From positions 1 through 64,000 of the forward strand of contig NZ_AZEA01000002.1 in NCBI RefSeq assembly GCF_001435575.1: a stretch of 64,000 nucleotides of DNA, in the 5' to 3' direction. The position numbers and the translations under genes are program-made. Below the pieces are notes generated by a model, which did not search any database, was not told the DNA's origin, and was given only the letters and a program-made list of their open reading frames with translations. The DNA comes from Lentilactobacillus sunkii DSM 19904 (lineage in GTDB: Bacteria; Bacillota; Bacilli; Lactobacillales; Lactobacillaceae). Positions 4,284 through 31,876 of this stretch are shown here, piece by piece. Numbering within the stretch: position 1 is the stretch's first letter; each line of letters opens with the position of its first letter.

Positions 4284-4329
4284 GGTGCTTATTTTTATAT
4301 GGCATTTCTCGTTCTGTTATTTTGCTGAA

Positions 4330-4441
4330 ACGTGTTCGGACGGCTCAGATGCTTACTTCTAAGGCTGGTTTGTTTCAAGCCCAAACCCCGGCTTCAAACA
4401 AACCAGCCTTAGAAACCGCATCTACCGAGCCTTCTCGCACT
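4330..4441 (-). repeat. Stop-adjacent palindromic repeat, copy A (helD)
   Basis: Begins directly after the helD TAG with AGTGCGAG and ends at CGAACACGTTT (minus-strand reading). The core is a perfect 14-bp stem, CTAAGGCTGGTTTG at 4359-4372 with its complement at 4399-4412, plus an inner AAGCC/GGCTT stem. Outer stems GATGC/GCATC and GGCTC/GAGCC are separated by internal loops. It shares its ends and the GGTTTCTAAG/CTTAGAAGTAAG internal-loop sequence with copy C at 31759-31876, while the paired bases differ. Confidence 0.7.
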
Positions 4442-6736
4442 CTAATCTAACTCATATTCATCCTTCGGCACCGTCTCAAAAATCGGTGACAGTTCCTTAA
4501 TTGCAACCACGGTCAAGCGATGCATAGCCCGGGTACAAATCGTGTACACCAATTGGCGGTCACTTTCATCAGGATAACAAGCCTTCGATGCATCCCACAT
4601 AATCACACTATCGAATTCCAGTCCTTTGGCAAGGTATGATGGCACAATGATAATCCCCTTGACCAAACGCTGATTCTCAGTTCGAATCAAAGTTGACTTA
4701 ATGCCGAGCTCAGACAATTTACCGCTGAGTTCTTGACACTCTTTAAGGGTTTTGCCGATGATGGCGGTCGTCTCGTGATCAGCCAGGTTCAATTCAGACT
4801 GCTGCTTGACTTGCTCCACGCCCGCATCCATTCCGTCCTTCACGTAAATGTGTGGCAAATCGCCTTGACGGTTGAATGGAATGATATCCTGGCCGTTGGT
4901 CAACAGATTCTTCGTGAAGTTGGTAATCTGTTCGGTTGAACGATAAGATTTGGTTAATTGAACAACCCGCGTCTTATCTTCAGGGAACATGCTCCCCAAC
5001 TCACCCAATAACTTCCGGCTGTTTTCGTGGGTGAAAATTGCCTGGTTCAAATCCCCAAGCAAGGTAAATCTTGCTCTTGGGAAACTGAACTTCAAGAATG
5101 CCAGCTGGAAAGCCGAGTAATCCTGAACCTCATCGATAAAGAGGTAACGGATATCCTTGTCACCGCGTTTACCTGTCATCAAGTCATACAGGTAAATGTA
5201 GGAAGAGGCATCTGCCAGTGACAGTTTCCCCTTCTTCAAGCGACCAACTGTTGCTTTAATTTCTTCCTGCCACATTTCATTGGTCACATCAAAATTGTTT
5301 AACTTGATGATTTGTGGAATGGCCCGCAGCATATGAATAAATTGATTGTTAATGCTCAACCAGTGGTTTCTTGAAATCTGCCGTTGAAGCTTTCGGAATG
5401 ATTTAACAACAATTCGTCGGGCAAGAAATTTGAATTCTTTATCGGAATTCAAAATTTCTTCTTCGCCCTCTTTGTGGAACTGTTGAATTTCTTCACGCGA
5501 AAGGTTTTGAACGGCTTCTTCAACCCACTTCTTCTTCATTTCAACGTGGATCTTCCGATTCAAAATCTTCATTAATTCATCTTTGGTGGATTCAATTCGG
5601 TTGCGCAGATTGTAATTCTCGTTAAAGCCGTAATAGATTTCGGCGATTTTTTCTTTGGGGATCAACACTTCGCCATTAAACATTAAGTTTCTAAAGCGCA
5701 TATCTTCTTTATTCAAATGATTGGCGTAAGCGCTGACCGCCCGGAAGTAATCCAGACTCCCTTTGATATCAGTGAGCTTTTGCGCTTTTTTATCAAGCTG
5801 CTCTGTAAACCGTTCGGACAATGTCTCCACCTGAACGCTTGGCAGTCGGTGGGAGCTATATTGATAGAAGGTCATTTGAACCATGTTCTGCTCGCCCAGT
5901 TCAGGCAGTACTTGGTTGATGTAATCATTAAATAGTTGATTAGGTGAAAACAGAATAATCTGACCAGAATGCAAATTACCACGATATTGGTAGAGCAGAA
6001 AAGCAACCCGCTGAAGAACGGCCGCAGTTTTTCCTGAACCGGCAGATCCCTGAACGAACAGGAGGTCTGAGGTGGTATCCCGGATAATCTGGTTTTGTTC
6101 CTTCTGAATGGTAGTGACAATACTCTTCATCTTGGTATCGGAGCGGTTGCTTAACGCATCCAAGAGCATTTGGTCCCCTACAACTTCCTCGGTATCAAAG
6201 ACCGTTTTAATCTTGGAATTTTCAATTTGGAATTGACGTTTTAACTTGACATCAACGGTCTGTTCACCATCGGGGGTCATGTATGTGACATCCCCGATGC
6301 CGCCGTTATAATAAATACTTGAAATAGGGGCCCGCCAGTCATAGATCAGGTAATGGTCCGGCTGATCGGTAAAAGAAGCCATTCCGATATAAATCGTTTC
6401 GTCGCGCTTCTCATCACCTTCCCGAAAATCAATCCGCGCAAAATAAGGGTTCTTCTCAAGCTTATTGAGAGTCCCAAGTTCACGGGCAGCGTGCTCCTGG
6501 CGGTTCTCACGCTCGGATAGCATCTGCTGTTGCTGCCGAATCGACATGGCAGTTTCCATCATTCCACTATAAGTTTCAGTTTTGAGCCGGACATCGTTGT
6601 TGAAATTACGATTAATATCTTTAACATCCCGCTTGGTTGCCTTGATCTTTTTCTCAAGGTCCTTTTGGGAAATGTGAATCTCATCGATGACATGGTCCAA
6701 ATGGTGTTGTTCTTGTGTTTTGATATTATCGGCCAT
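4442..6736 (-). CDS. helD: HelD-like superfamily 1 helicase, RNA polymerase recycling factor
   Basis: 764 residues with a UvrD/Rep-type motor: Walker A GSAGSGKTAAV at about 231-241, Walker B LFIDEVQD in the second half, and C-terminal motifs including KSYRST. The N-terminal 100 residues are charged and predicted coiled coil, as in HelD proteins, which insert this arm into RNA polymerase and use ATP to remove stalled polymerase from DNA. A DNA-repair UvrD role is less likely because of the N-terminal arm. The ATG at 6736 follows GGGGG. Monocistronic; its stop codon abuts palindromic repeat copy A. Confidence 0.85.
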   Translation of the reverse strand: MADNIKTQEQHHLDHVIDEIHISQKDLEKKIKATKRDVKDINRNFNNDVRLKTETYSGMMETAMSIRQQQQMLSERENRQEHAARELGTLNKLEKNPYFARIDFREGDEKRDETIYIGMASFTDQPDHYLIYDWRAPISSIYYNGGIGDVTYMTPDGEQTVDVKLKRQFQIENSKIKTVFDTEEVVGDQMLLDALSNRSDTKMKSIVTTIQKEQNQIIRDTTSDLLFVQGSAGSGKTAAVLQRVAFLLYQYRGNLHSGQIILFSPNQLFNDYINQVLPELGEQNMVQMTFYQYSSHRLPSVQVETLSERFTEQLDKKAQKLTDIKGSLDYFRAVSAYANHLNKEDMRFRNLMFNGEVLIPKEKIAEIYYGFNENYNLRNRIESTKDELMKILNRKIHVEMKKKWVEEAVQNLSREEIQQFHKEGEEEILNSDKEFKFLARRIVVKSFRKLQRQISRNHWLSINNQFIHMLRAIPQIIKLNNFDVTNEMWQEEIKATVGRLKKGKLSLADASSYIYLYDLMTGKRGDKDIRYLFIDEVQDYSAFQLAFLKFSFPRARFTLLGDLNQAIFTHENSRKLLGELGSMFPEDKTRVVQLTKSYRSTEQITNFTKNLLTNGQDIIPFNRQGDLPHIYVKDGMDAGVEQVKQQSELNLADHETTAIIGKTLKECQELSGKLSELGIKSTLIRTENQRLVKGIIIVPSYLAKGLEFDSVIMWDASKACYPDESDRQLVYTICTRAMHRLTVVAIKELSPIFETVPKDEYELD

Positions 6737-8195: not shown

Positions 8196-8203
8196 CATTT
8201 AAA

Positions 8204-8245
8204 AAGAGGCTGGGACAAAAGTGTAAACTTTTGCCTCAGCCTCTT
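8204..8245 (+). terminator. Terminator after yoeB
   Basis: Long stem AAGAGGCTG...CAAAAGT / ACTTTTG...CAGCCTCTT with a GTAA-type loop, then TTCTTT. It may serve both directions because the MazG-like gene converges on it. Confidence 0.7.
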
Positions 8246-8274
8246 CTTTGGTGGTGTCATTCTTACTTAGCAAA

Positions 8275-8393
8275 AACGTGCTCAAATCGGCTGATCCCGG
8301 CCATTTAAGGGAATACATCAACCATTCCAGAACCGGGAATAATTGATGTATTCCCTTAAATTCTGGGATCAAATCGCCTATTTTCCCACTCTC
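8275..8393 (-). repeat. Stop-adjacent palindromic repeat, copy B (mazG-like)
   Basis: Follows the TAA of the MazG-like gene as GAGAGTGGGAAAA and ends GAGCACGTTT (minus reading). The core is an 18-bp perfect stem (8304-8321 with 8343-8360), with a lower stem GATCCC/GGGATC and CGATTT repeated on both sides. Its bases are unrelated to copies A, C, D and E although layout and ends match. Confidence 0.65.
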
Positions 8394-8711
8394 TTATTTT
8401 TCATTAAATCGTTTCTTCAATTTCTTTTCACTGAACGCCATCAAACTATCAGGATCAACCTCATACTTATCACAAAGAATTAAGACCTGATCCATTACGT
8501 CTGCCAATTCTTCATGGAGATTGTACTCACGCTCACCCTTAGTTTCATGTTCCCCAGGGTGGTCACGACCAATTTCAATTGCGCGGATTGCCCGAGACAG
8601 TTCACCGACTTCTTCAGTTAAAAAGTTCAGCCGAATAAACGACGAGTATTTGTACCAATCGCGTTTTTTGTAAAAATCGACCAGCCATTCTTGATGTTGC
8701 TTTAAATTCAT
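8394..8711 (-). CDS. MazG-like nucleotide pyrophosphohydrolase
   Basis: 105 residues of the all-alpha NTP pyrophosphatase superfamily. The metal-binding acidic pairs are visible in TEEVGEL (about residue 30) and HEELADVMDQ (about residue 65). Such small MazG-like proteins are thought to hydrolyse non-canonical or excess NTPs; the substrate cannot be inferred. A GTG at 8720 sits inside GGAGTGG with no spacing, so ATG at 8711 (8 nt from GGAG) is preferred. Confidence 0.8.
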   Translation of the reverse strand: MNLKQHQEWLVDFYKKRDWYKYSSFIRLNFLTEEVGELSRAIRAIEIGRDHPGEHETKGEREYNLHEELADVMDQVLILCDKYEVDPDSLMAFSEKKLKKRFNEK

Positions 8712-12798: not shown

Positions 12799-13284
12799 AT
12801 GTATTCAATTGGTGATGTAGCAGAAAAAATGGGAATCAGCACTTCGGCAATCCGCTTTTATGATAGAAAAGGACTTCTCCCATTTGTCGAAAGAGACAAT
12901 GCTGGTCGCAGAAAATTTAAGCAAAACGACTTAAATTTTCTTGAAGTGATTAATTGCCTGAAAAAAAGTGGTGTGCCTATCAAAGATATCGCCCACTTTA
13001 TTGACCTCTGTATGCAGGGTGACGGCACTCTTCGAGAACGCTATGACTACCTTGATCACGAAGAAGCTGCGCTTGAACAACGAATAAAAAAGATGAAAGA
13101 TCAGCTCGACTTTCTCCGATTCAAAAAGTGGTATTATAAAACTTCTGTTGAAGCCGGGACGGAAAAGATCCATTTCACACCTGGAACTAACGTGGTAAAT
13201 CCAGGCACCAAGCACCAATATCAAACAGCTTTGAAGAATGCAAATGATCTTTATAGTTTGACTAATCTCAATTCTAAAAAATAA
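12799..13284 (+). CDS. MerR family transcriptional regulator (divergent from SDR operon)
   Basis: 161 residues: HTH YSIGDVAEKMGISTSAIRFYD at the N-terminus, DRKGLLPFVERDNAGRR wing, and a long coiled coil at about 85-115. The effector part has no Cys cluster, so an organic signal fits better than a metal; aldehyde-responsive AdhR-like regulators have similar context. ATGAGG lies 6 nt before ATG. It most likely activates the divergent SDR/acetyltransferase operon through the site at 12752-12771. Confidence 0.88.
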   Translation: MYSIGDVAEKMGISTSAIRFYDRKGLLPFVERDNAGRRKFKQNDLNFLEVINCLKKSGVPIKDIAHFIDLCMQGDGTLRERYDYLDHEEAALEQRIKKMKDQLDFLRFKKWYYKTSVEAGTEKIHFTPGTNVVNPGTKHQYQTALKNANDLYSLTNLNSKK

Positions 13285-13331
13285 CAAATAAACGCTGTCC
13301 GAGTATGAAAAACTTGGATGGCGTTTATTTG
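13285..13331 (+). terminator. Terminator after merR
   Basis: CAAATAAACGC...GCGTTTATTTG stem (11 bp) with a second inner stem TCC-AGT/ACT-GGA directly after the stop codon; GTTGATATTGTTTTT follows. Confidence 0.75.
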
Positions 13332-13360
13332 TTGATATTGTTTTTAGTTTTATTCTGACT

Positions 13361-13448
13361 ACCTAGCCGAATTGTGCTCCACCAAGCAAGGGCTTGCATC
13401 TAAAAGGCCCCAAGTAAAAATCAAACTCGATTTTCACTTGGGGCCCTC
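13361..13448 (-). repeat. Partial palindromic repeat, copy D' (tandem to D)
   Basis: Repeats the distal arm and apical hairpin of copy D (same 13361-13386 and 13458-13483 sequence) but lacks the gene-proximal arm. Its apical stem is GGCCCCAAGT/ACTTGGGGCC (13406-13415 with 13436-13445), whereas D has a different stem around the same 19-nt loop segment. The loss of one arm means it cannot form the full fold. Confidence 0.65.
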
Positions 13449-13457
13449 TCCACTTCT

Positions 13458-13581
13458 ACCTAGCCGAATTGTGCTCCACCAAGCAGAGACTTGCATCTAA
13501 CAGGGGCCGACCAAAAATCAAACTCGATTTTCGGTCGGCCCCTGTTAGATTTCAGTCTCTAAACGCTTGGTTCCGCACACT
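13458..13581 (-). repeat. Stop-adjacent palindromic repeat, copy D (oppF)
   Basis: Starts at the oppF TAG (AGTGTGCGGAACC) and ends TGGAGCACAATTCGGC on the minus strand. An 18-bp perfect apical stem (13495-13512 with 13533-13550) and lower stems AGAGAC/GTCTCT and CCAAGC/GCTTGG are separated by internal loops. Same architecture as copies A, B, C and E. Confidence 0.7.
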
Positions 13582-14544
13582 CTATTTTTTTAACCGTGAA
13601 TCTTCCTGTGCGCGCTTTTTATACATAGGTATTTCATCTTCGCTGGCCCGTACCCAGTGATGCGGTACGATTTCCACTAATGAACGTTCCTTGCCGTCAA
13701 ATTCTTGGCTGGCATCATATGGAATTTGCACACGTGCCCGCTCGTACTCTGGATCCGGCACTGGGACCGCCGACAGTAGACTTGCCGTATAATCGTGCAG
13801 TGGATGAGCATAAATCTCATCCGAACTGGCAATTTCCAGCATTCTGCCGTAATGCATAACCCCAATCCGATCACTGATGTACTTAACCATTGAAAGGTCA
13901 TGAGCGATGAACAGATAGGTCAAATTTCGTTCACGCTGCAGCTTCTTCAACAGGTTAACTACTTGGGCCTGAATCGAAACATCCAACGCTGAGATTGGCT
14001 CATCAGCGATAATAAACTCTGGTTGAACCGCCAATGCTCTGGCAATCCCAATCCGTTGACGTTGACCACCTGAAAATTCATGTGGGTAACGACTGGAATG
14101 GTCTTTATTCAAACCAACAGTTTCCAGCAAATCTTCAACCTGCTTGGAACGATCAGCATCGTCCTTTGCCAAATGGTTAATGTCAATTCCTTCAGCAACG
14201 ATATCTTTAACTTTCATTCGTGGGTTCAATGAGGCATAAGGATCTTGGAAGATCATCTGCATATCACGTCTGAAAGTCTGCTTTTGCTTCTTGGAATCAA
14301 GTTTTGAAACATCTTGCCCATTGAAGATAATCTTACCGGACGTTGGTTCGTACAAATGAATGATTGCCCGTCCAGTCGTGGTTTTACCAGAACCGGATTC
14401 ACCAACCAATCCAAATGTTTCACCACGATAAACATCAAAGGTAATGTCGTCAACCGCACGAACCTCGTTGGCTTTACCAATGTTGAAGTATTGTTTCAGG
14501 TGTTCAACTTGTAATATTTTATTTTCATCTGAATAATCGATCAC
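13582..14544 (-). CDS. oppF: Oligopeptide ABC transporter ATP-binding protein OppF
   Basis: 320 residues. Walker A GESGSGKTT near 51, signature SGGQRQRIGIARALA, Walker B FIIADEP, and the C-terminal extension typical of Opp/Dpp ATPases (YAHPLHDYTASLLSAVP). With OppD it forms the ATPase pair that powers peptide uptake. The start is GTG, overlapping the oppD TGA (GTGA), with AGGAGG 7 nt upstream; expression is therefore coupled to oppD. Last gene of oppA-B-C-D-F. Confidence 0.93.
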   Translation of the reverse strand: MIDYSDENKILQVEHLKQYFNIGKANEVRAVDDITFDVYRGETFGLVGESGSGKTTTGRAIIHLYEPTSGKIIFNGQDVSKLDSKKQKQTFRRDMQMIFQDPYASLNPRMKVKDIVAEGIDINHLAKDDADRSKQVEDLLETVGLNKDHSSRYPHEFSGGQRQRIGIARALAVQPEFIIADEPISALDVSIQAQVVNLLKKLQRERNLTYLFIAHDLSMVKYISDRIGVMHYGRMLEIASSDEIYAHPLHDYTASLLSAVPVPDPEYERARVQIPYDASQEFDGKERSLVEIVPHHWVRASEDEIPMYKKRAQEDSRLKK

Positions 14545-31667: not shown

Positions 31668-31758
31668 GATTAATATTTGTGAATAATGTTTTGCTATCCT
31701 ATTTCGAAGGGTAAATTTTAATTTTGTTTTTGGTGGTTGGTTCACTGTTATTTGGATA

Positions 31759-31876
31759 AAACGTGTTCCGACGCAACTGAGGCTAACTTCTAAGTGCACT
31801 TTGATTAAAGTCCCAAACCCAGGACTTCAATCAAAGTACCCTTAGAAACCGCCTCACCCGTTGCTCGTCACACTCT
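31759..31876 (-). repeat. Stop-adjacent palindromic repeat, copy C (ABC permease)
   Basis: Begins at the permease stop TAG with AGAGTGTGACGAGCAAC and ends GTTGCGTCGGAACACG (minus reading). Stems from outside inward: GTGT/ACAC, GCAAC/GTTGC, GAGGC/GCCTC, CTAAG/CTTAG, ACTTTGAT/ATCAAAGT, AGTCC/GGACT. Loop sequences match copy A, the stems do not. Confidence 0.7.

Follow-up and report, generated by a model that had tools for sequence, protein, structure and literature searches.

A Dispersed Family of Hairpins at Lactobacillaceae Gene Ends

Two neighboring hairpins of Lentilactobacillus sunkii DSM 19904, here called D and D′, are members of a large, dispersed and apparently undescribed hairpin family of the Lactobacillaceae that is built on a unit of ~120 letters. 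About seven in ten of the copies behind an ORF of the same strand stand in sense orientation directly at the stop codon. Judged from the sequences of the copies, the helices of the family covary, and selection acts on the fold of one strand, that of the element. The D/D′ pair, found in a window of 64,000 nt (the whole stretch of DNA analyzed), is one instance of this much bigger pattern.

Structure of D and D′

D is a full-length element (AGAGTG...CACAATTCGGCTAGGTA), a hairpin of ~127 nt at 13457..13583 on the minus strand, which the covariance model of the family matches at C12:13462-13581:- with 110 bits. In element orientation, from 13583 to 13457, it consists of AGAGTG, a basal helix, helix I, a one-sided GTTT bulge, helix II, a GAA/GCA internal loop, the 18-bp helix III, the constant apical hairpin, and a return arm to GCACAATTCGGCTAGGTA. 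Directly upstream lies an oppF-like ABC ATPase ORF (13582..14544, minus strand), which has orthologs of its own and for which the best named matches are those of L. parakefiri (97%) and L. parabuchneri (95%). The AG of its TAG stop codon (13584-13582) is supplied by the first bases of D; the distance of 0 between D and oppF refers to the model match, which starts two bases inside AGAGTG. D′ (13360..13455, minus strand) is a satellite copy, 5′-truncated in element orientation, with a partial model match (13391-13460:-, 35 bits). It retains the apical hairpin, a 10-bp inner stem (GGCCCCAAGT/ACTTGGGGCC, with the constant apical segment at 13406..13445; inverted repeat I4) and the 3′ arm, and carries a short linker (13446-13455) in place of the 5′ arm. 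D folds at -69.3 (plus strand) or -79.2 (minus strand) kcal/mol, with z about -12; the values for D′ are -32.9 with z -4.6 (plus strand) and -44.4 with z -5.2 (minus strand).

A preliminary description of this DNA had reported the same distal arm and loop segment in both copies, a perfect apical stem in each, and the absence of the proximal arm from D′, and all three statements hold. The two are direct copies 97 bp apart with 88% identity over 77 nt; the constant apical segment AAAAATCAAACTCGATTTT (13513..13531 in D) occurs twice in the window, exactly in both cases in a search allowing <=3 mismatches (0.08 expected by shuffling), and a distal-arm 20-mer likewise occurs twice (0.01 expected). 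The perfect stem spans 10 bp in D′ (13406-13415/13436-13445) and 18 bp in D (13495-13512/13533-13550 on the plus strand; inverted repeat I1). The apical stems had also been called unrelated, which is true of the inner 10-12 bp of helix III; the outer ATCTAA/TTAGAT part is common to D and D′, being present in the surviving arm of the latter. Sequencing error, considered as a source of the arrangement, is unlikely because two other assemblies show the same layout here, with truncated copies behind a full one. A search for genomic positions from which the D′ stem could derive, proposed as a check, returned at <=2 mismatches no match besides the two arms of D′ itself; at three mismatches there were 28 matches in the genome against 19 for the reversed control.

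The window holds two other family members at stop codons, each of a subfamily other than that of D and on the minus strand: 4323..4443 (L084, distance -2) and 31754..31876 (L121, distance 0). At about 8199-8404 it also contains a different repeat of ~200 bp, several copies of which occur in the window's own genome (G000) and in G022, G008, and G009 at 73-96% identity. No tRNA genes were found in the window.

Distribution of the Hairpin Family

The family unit measures about 120-128 nt, has the ends AGAGTG...CACGTTT followed by a tail near CGGCTAGGTA, and shows a recurring bulge and internal loop; the lengths of its helices are nearly fixed, and their sequence is largely free. In the window's own genome the apical motif has 17 matches at <=2 mismatches (reversed control, 0), of which, besides D and D′, 11 read as hairpins and at least three of the other four lie in sequence without a hairpin. 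A covariance model built on 10 complete copies from this genome gives 85 matches in it, both strands counted. It also finds matches in 17 of the 24 genomes of the genus, in 1 of 17 other genomes, and, in a sample of the Lactobacillaceae for which about 12 candidates were scored per genome, in 130 of 301 genomes and 22 of 40 genera. Seven genomes of the genus (G001, G002, G007, G015, G018, G021, and G023; 1.2-2.1 Mb) have no family match; the carriers measure 2.0-3.3 Mb.

In a search of the whole window against Rfam 15, D and D′ were unmatched, and eight element loci gave six matches among them, every one below the gathering score. The only window match to reach the gathering score is a Listeria sRNA, rli28, at 1017-1204 on the plus strand (51.9 bits; gathering score 45); lying far from D, it does not provide an identity for the element. 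Carriage by plasmids or phages was considered and found no backing, as one R1-type copy had no match in either collection. We found no description of the family in the literature, as judged from titles and the beginnings of abstracts; this coverage mostly excluded subscription papers, so an earlier description is possible.

Several further features were seen among the copies. An exact 120-nt head-to-tail array of five family members lies at L104 1141-1740. At five loci (L144, L142, L074, L293 7644-7764, and L315 11774-11893) a module like CCAAGTAGGCTAGGC...GCCGTCG occurs within or behind elements, and it may represent another mini-repeat, one nested within the hairpin family. Eight contigs of the window's own genome (C5, C6, C14, C21, C26, C27, C48, and C49) start or end in or near a family member; the repeats seem to break this assembly. 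A CA-rich tail behind the elements, suspected at single loci, is weak in the composition profile past the first 20-30 nt.

Position at Stop Codons

We placed 112 distinct copies from the window's own genome and its relatives with respect to neighboring ORFs, which were called by a simple script and not taken from annotation. Eighty-one copies lie behind an ORF on the same strand, 23 behind a gene on the opposite strand, and 8 have no upstream ORF. Among the 81, 56 start within -9 to +8 nt of the stop codon and 25 lie elsewhere; copies placed uniformly in the spacer would give 8.7, and 2000 simulations reached at most 18. The most frequent distance is -2 (19 copies), at which a T and the AG of the element together make TAG, and TAG accounts for 39 of the 56 stop codons. 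As controls, the stop codon of a convergent downstream gene is contacted in 0 of 38 cases, and a divergent upstream gene in 1 of 23. Docking is also present in other genera, oppF loci among them; in one genus (L244, L246-L248, and L251) no copy was read at a stop codon. A mini-version of ~51 nt, comprising the ends and basal helices only, was observed at an oppF stop codon in Levilactobacillus parabrevis (L162 3962-4012).

Strong hairpins at gene ends could be transcription terminators or attenuators, an explanation that we consider distinctly improbable here. A terminator scan of 13150-13800, in which D and D′ were the elements covered, reports a single terminator-like hairpin that lies beyond D′ and outside the element (13285..13331, plus strand), and none at D or D′; D is no plain intrinsic terminator. 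A role linked to Rho finds no backing either, as the Rho score in this genome is far below the curated cut-off (37.1 vs. 509 bits). Inspection by eye of an orthologous site that is empty in G009 (site A below) shows a short gap between a stop codon and a GGAGG-ATG start, so that copies filling this site would be intra-operon.

Selection on the Fold

The preliminary description had taken the differing and fully paired stems of D and D′ as direct evidence of compensatory replacement. As evidence this pair is weaker than claimed because D′ is a truncated satellite, the inner stem of which may be merely inherited. Compensatory replacement itself is strongly supported for the family, by covariation and an excess of G.U pairs, and for D across three species. 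In the 10 copies from the window's own genome, 97.7% of the cells pair and 25 of 44 pairs have changed on both sides, against 14.2 in shuffled and 6-8 in slid controls. For 39 places taken from other Lactobacillaceae genomes (L236-L257) the paired share is 96.9%, and both sides have changed in 38 of the 44 pairs, in an alignment that was fitted to the same covariance model and leans toward it; the shuffle and slide controls for this set were run on 49 rows, including 10 opposite-strand matches. Three orthologs of D (in G000, G008, and G022) pair in all 135 cells (100%), with 10 of 45 pairs changed on both sides.

The direction of the mispairs names the strand. With arms aligned such that G.U and A.C were treated alike, isolated mispairs were counted at a G.U:A.C ratio of 75:3 in 64 copies of the window's own genome and 81:5 in 86 others (156 vs. 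8 in 150 copies), and at 28:3 in 39 further copies; the copies are related, and these counts are not independent and carry no formal probability. Since a G.U on one strand is an A.C on the other, the asymmetry identifies the element strand as the one on which the fold matters, and at docked copies the upstream gene lies on this strand. Part of the excess could come from strand-biased mutation. The remaining isolated mispairs, chiefly G.G and A.G (27, 28, and 30 in the three sets), may be fixed non-canonical positions.

Template switching during replication (quasipalindrome correction) would produce paired arms in another way, by copying one arm into the other, and selection on the fold would be unneeded. 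Such copying, which the preliminary description had offered as the second possible mechanism, is suggested in a few copies. In D of G022 (L296) the former internal loop is now paired, the 5′ arm AGGGACTTGCATCTAA being the exact complement of the 3′ arm in a perfect run of 28 bp, a sign that one arm may have served as the template for the other; L097 contains a perfect run of 35 bp, and with L254 these make 3 of 189 copies with a fully complementary internal loop. In the D orthologs change is concentrated in helix III, where an 11-bp block holds nine of the ten altered pairs; the apex and helices I and II hardly vary. Furthermore, D′ of the window is alone among three counterparts in having paired arms (z -5.18), those in G008 and G022 folding like shuffles (z -0.66 and 0.09); re-copying could explain this as well as decay elsewhere could, and both readings of the D′ stem, as a survivor or as re-copied, fit the three sequences. 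Against template switching as a general account, the internal loop is not fully complementary in 186 of the 189 copies, and D of G000 and D of G008 differ by two isolated double changes, both from G-C to A-U. Because G.U outnumbers A.C by about 20 to 1, arm copying is unlikely to be the main driver, and as an explanation of the whole pattern we regard it as improbable.

Turnover of the Occupants

The stop codon of oppF is occupied differently in different species. In G008 and G022 the occupant is D, with truncated copies behind it, and in G008 a third truncated copy repeats the 3′ arm of D; no element was found behind oppF in G005 and G006, and other subfamilies sit at the same stop codon in G009 and G004, where the site sequences are those of an L. 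parabuchneri record (L157) and an L. kisonensis record (L159), respectively. The satellite arrangement is also not particular to this locus: of 107 copies, 22 have the 3′ half repeated behind them, against 1 in the upstream control, and in 11 of these 22 the repeat stands too close behind for a full unit, the other 11 leaving room for one. With truncated followers in 11 of 107 copies, the layout of D and D′ recurs.

To this we added a comparison of two further blocks of about 19 kb in six genomes, in which the sites are common to the genomes and the occupants often differ. Three of the six sites (B, C, and E) have different occupants in different species: site-mates are 60-77% identical (one pair 89%), compared with a mean of 65 and a 95th percentile of 76 for random pairs, the left flanks are 78-90% identical, and each occupant has a relative off the site at 82-90%. 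Site D of this comparison looks vertically inherited on the evidence of its identities (81-96% on-site vs. 77-79% off-site), site F shows a weak contrast (78% vs. 75-76%), and site A is mixed, with G000, G008, and G022 at 86-90% and a G005 occupant that is closest (94%) to a copy elsewhere. Conversion between copies and renewed insertion at the same site would both account for these identities, and equally so. The single candidate empty site that was examined closely (G006 L310:369) is not a clean one; it is the rearranged neighborhood of site E, part of a larger rearrangement.

Presence or absence at orthologous sites and many dispersed noncoding copies were both found, as in MITE-like families; no recurrent target-site duplication was visible by eye in the junctions inspected. 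A purely selfish DNA element would account for much of this: it would move through a folded single-stranded DNA intermediate with the help of an HUH/Y1 (RAYT-like) or other recombinase, and the fold would be kept for mobility. G.T is also well tolerated in DNA, and dispersed copies, presence and absence between species, tandem arrays, and the one-sided bulge all agree with such an element. In the case of GTAG REPs, moreover, the TAG stop codon of an adjoining ORF is reported to come often from the terminus of the repeat (PMC3733652). However, Y1_Tnp (PF01797) at E 0.001 is without a match in the window's own genome or in eight element-rich genomes (G003, G004, G006, G008, G009, G014, G019, and G022), and Y1/RAYT mobilization is not supported; the domain is present in 7 of the 24 genomes of the genus. 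A 5′-terminal GTAG is present in only 30 of 181 copies, and docking at stop codons is no obvious outcome of such a mechanism. We regard a purely selfish DNA element as possible and rather doubtful.

A folded recombination site of the attC type, with a conserved shape behind a stop codon and the capacity to move gene cassettes, is very unlikely indeed. Integron attC sites do conserve folded shape over sequence and are located behind stop codons, and the one-sided bulge would also agree; yet the flanks of the hairpins stay put while the hairpin changes, and the ends AGAGTG/CACGTTT do not fit the attC core.

A Putative 3′-UTR Element with Renewable Occupants

On balance we lean toward a noncoding, probably non-autonomous mobile hairpin family whose fold would act as RNA in the 3′-UTR, whose members would diverge by drift and by exchange of occupants, and of which D′ would be a satellite; the case is drawn from comparison of genomes. 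The function is probably that of a 3′-UTR RNA element carried on a MITE-like unit. Transcription would place the unit first in the 3′-UTR, where its fold would act at the RNA level; most likely it would form a barrier or a processing site and so determine how stable the upstream message is, a role proposed by analogy with other bacterial repeats. The inner helix would drift through G.U pairs by compensatory changes, one arm being rewritten on rare occasions from its partner, and entire occupants would be exchanged via conversion between copies or re-insertion. D′ would have arisen as a 5′-truncated satellite by partial tandem duplication, and it possibly carries the inner stem of an earlier occupant.

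We also put forward, as a fairly unlikely extension, that the whole family is a mobile structured RNA targeted to stop codons, where an arrival can replace an older occupant, and that a trans-acting machinery recognizes the folded unit together with the end of a translated message. If this is true, hairpins of one fixed shape and changing identity persist at a given set of gene ends. A gene-end hairpin replaced where it stands would have no described counterpart in the passages covered (PMC2267715, PMC8632094, PMC2864571, PMC3733652, and PMC3446304). Dozens of copies per genome at gene ends would be a widespread and overlooked layer of 3′-end RNA structure in food-related Lactobacillaceae. With their single shape and largely free helix sequence, the many paralogs lend themselves to weighing G.U-mediated compensation against template switching in helix evolution, and the turnover at fixed stop codons brings the spread of small bacterial hairpins within reach of direct tests.

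Comparison with Known Systems

In kind, the family is closest to MITE- or REP-like repeats such as bcr1, EFAR, and the GTAG REPs, the likeness to bcr1 and EFAR being one of description only, and it fails the REP/RAYT features that were tested. Integron attC sites differ in their cassette movement, none of which was seen for the lactobacillus hairpins. The enterococcal repeat Efa-1 is, we presume, the same element as EFAR. Among the repeats of Firmicutes, these share the stem-loop character of our family; Efa-1 is described (PMC2267715) as a 163-nt repeat with 65 copies that forms a pair of adjacent hairpins, whereas the lactobacillus element is one interrupted hairpin. EFAR is named among the MITEs in PMC3733652.

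The repeats bcr1-bcr3 of the Bacillus cereus group are MITE-like and often lie in UTRs or operon spacers, and only bcr3 was correlated with decay (PMC3446304); bcr1 is a 167-nt family with a conserved fold (PMC2267715). The lactobacillus hairpins resemble them as MITE-like repeats with a conserved fold, probably also located in UTRs. They differ in host group, and neither docking nor the replacement of occupants at fixed sites forms part of the description of bcr1-bcr3 in the passages covered. Among the REPs and BIMEs of the GTAG class, the REPs are smaller, measuring 20-40 bp compared with about 120 nt for the lactobacillus unit; they have the GTAG foot that most of our copies lack, and their REP/RAYT system uses the Y1 (IS200/IS605-type) transposase that has no match in the window's own genome. 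They are nevertheless palindromic repeats near genes, and it is their termini that, like the AG of the lactobacillus element, are reported to provide a TAG stop codon often (PMC3733652).
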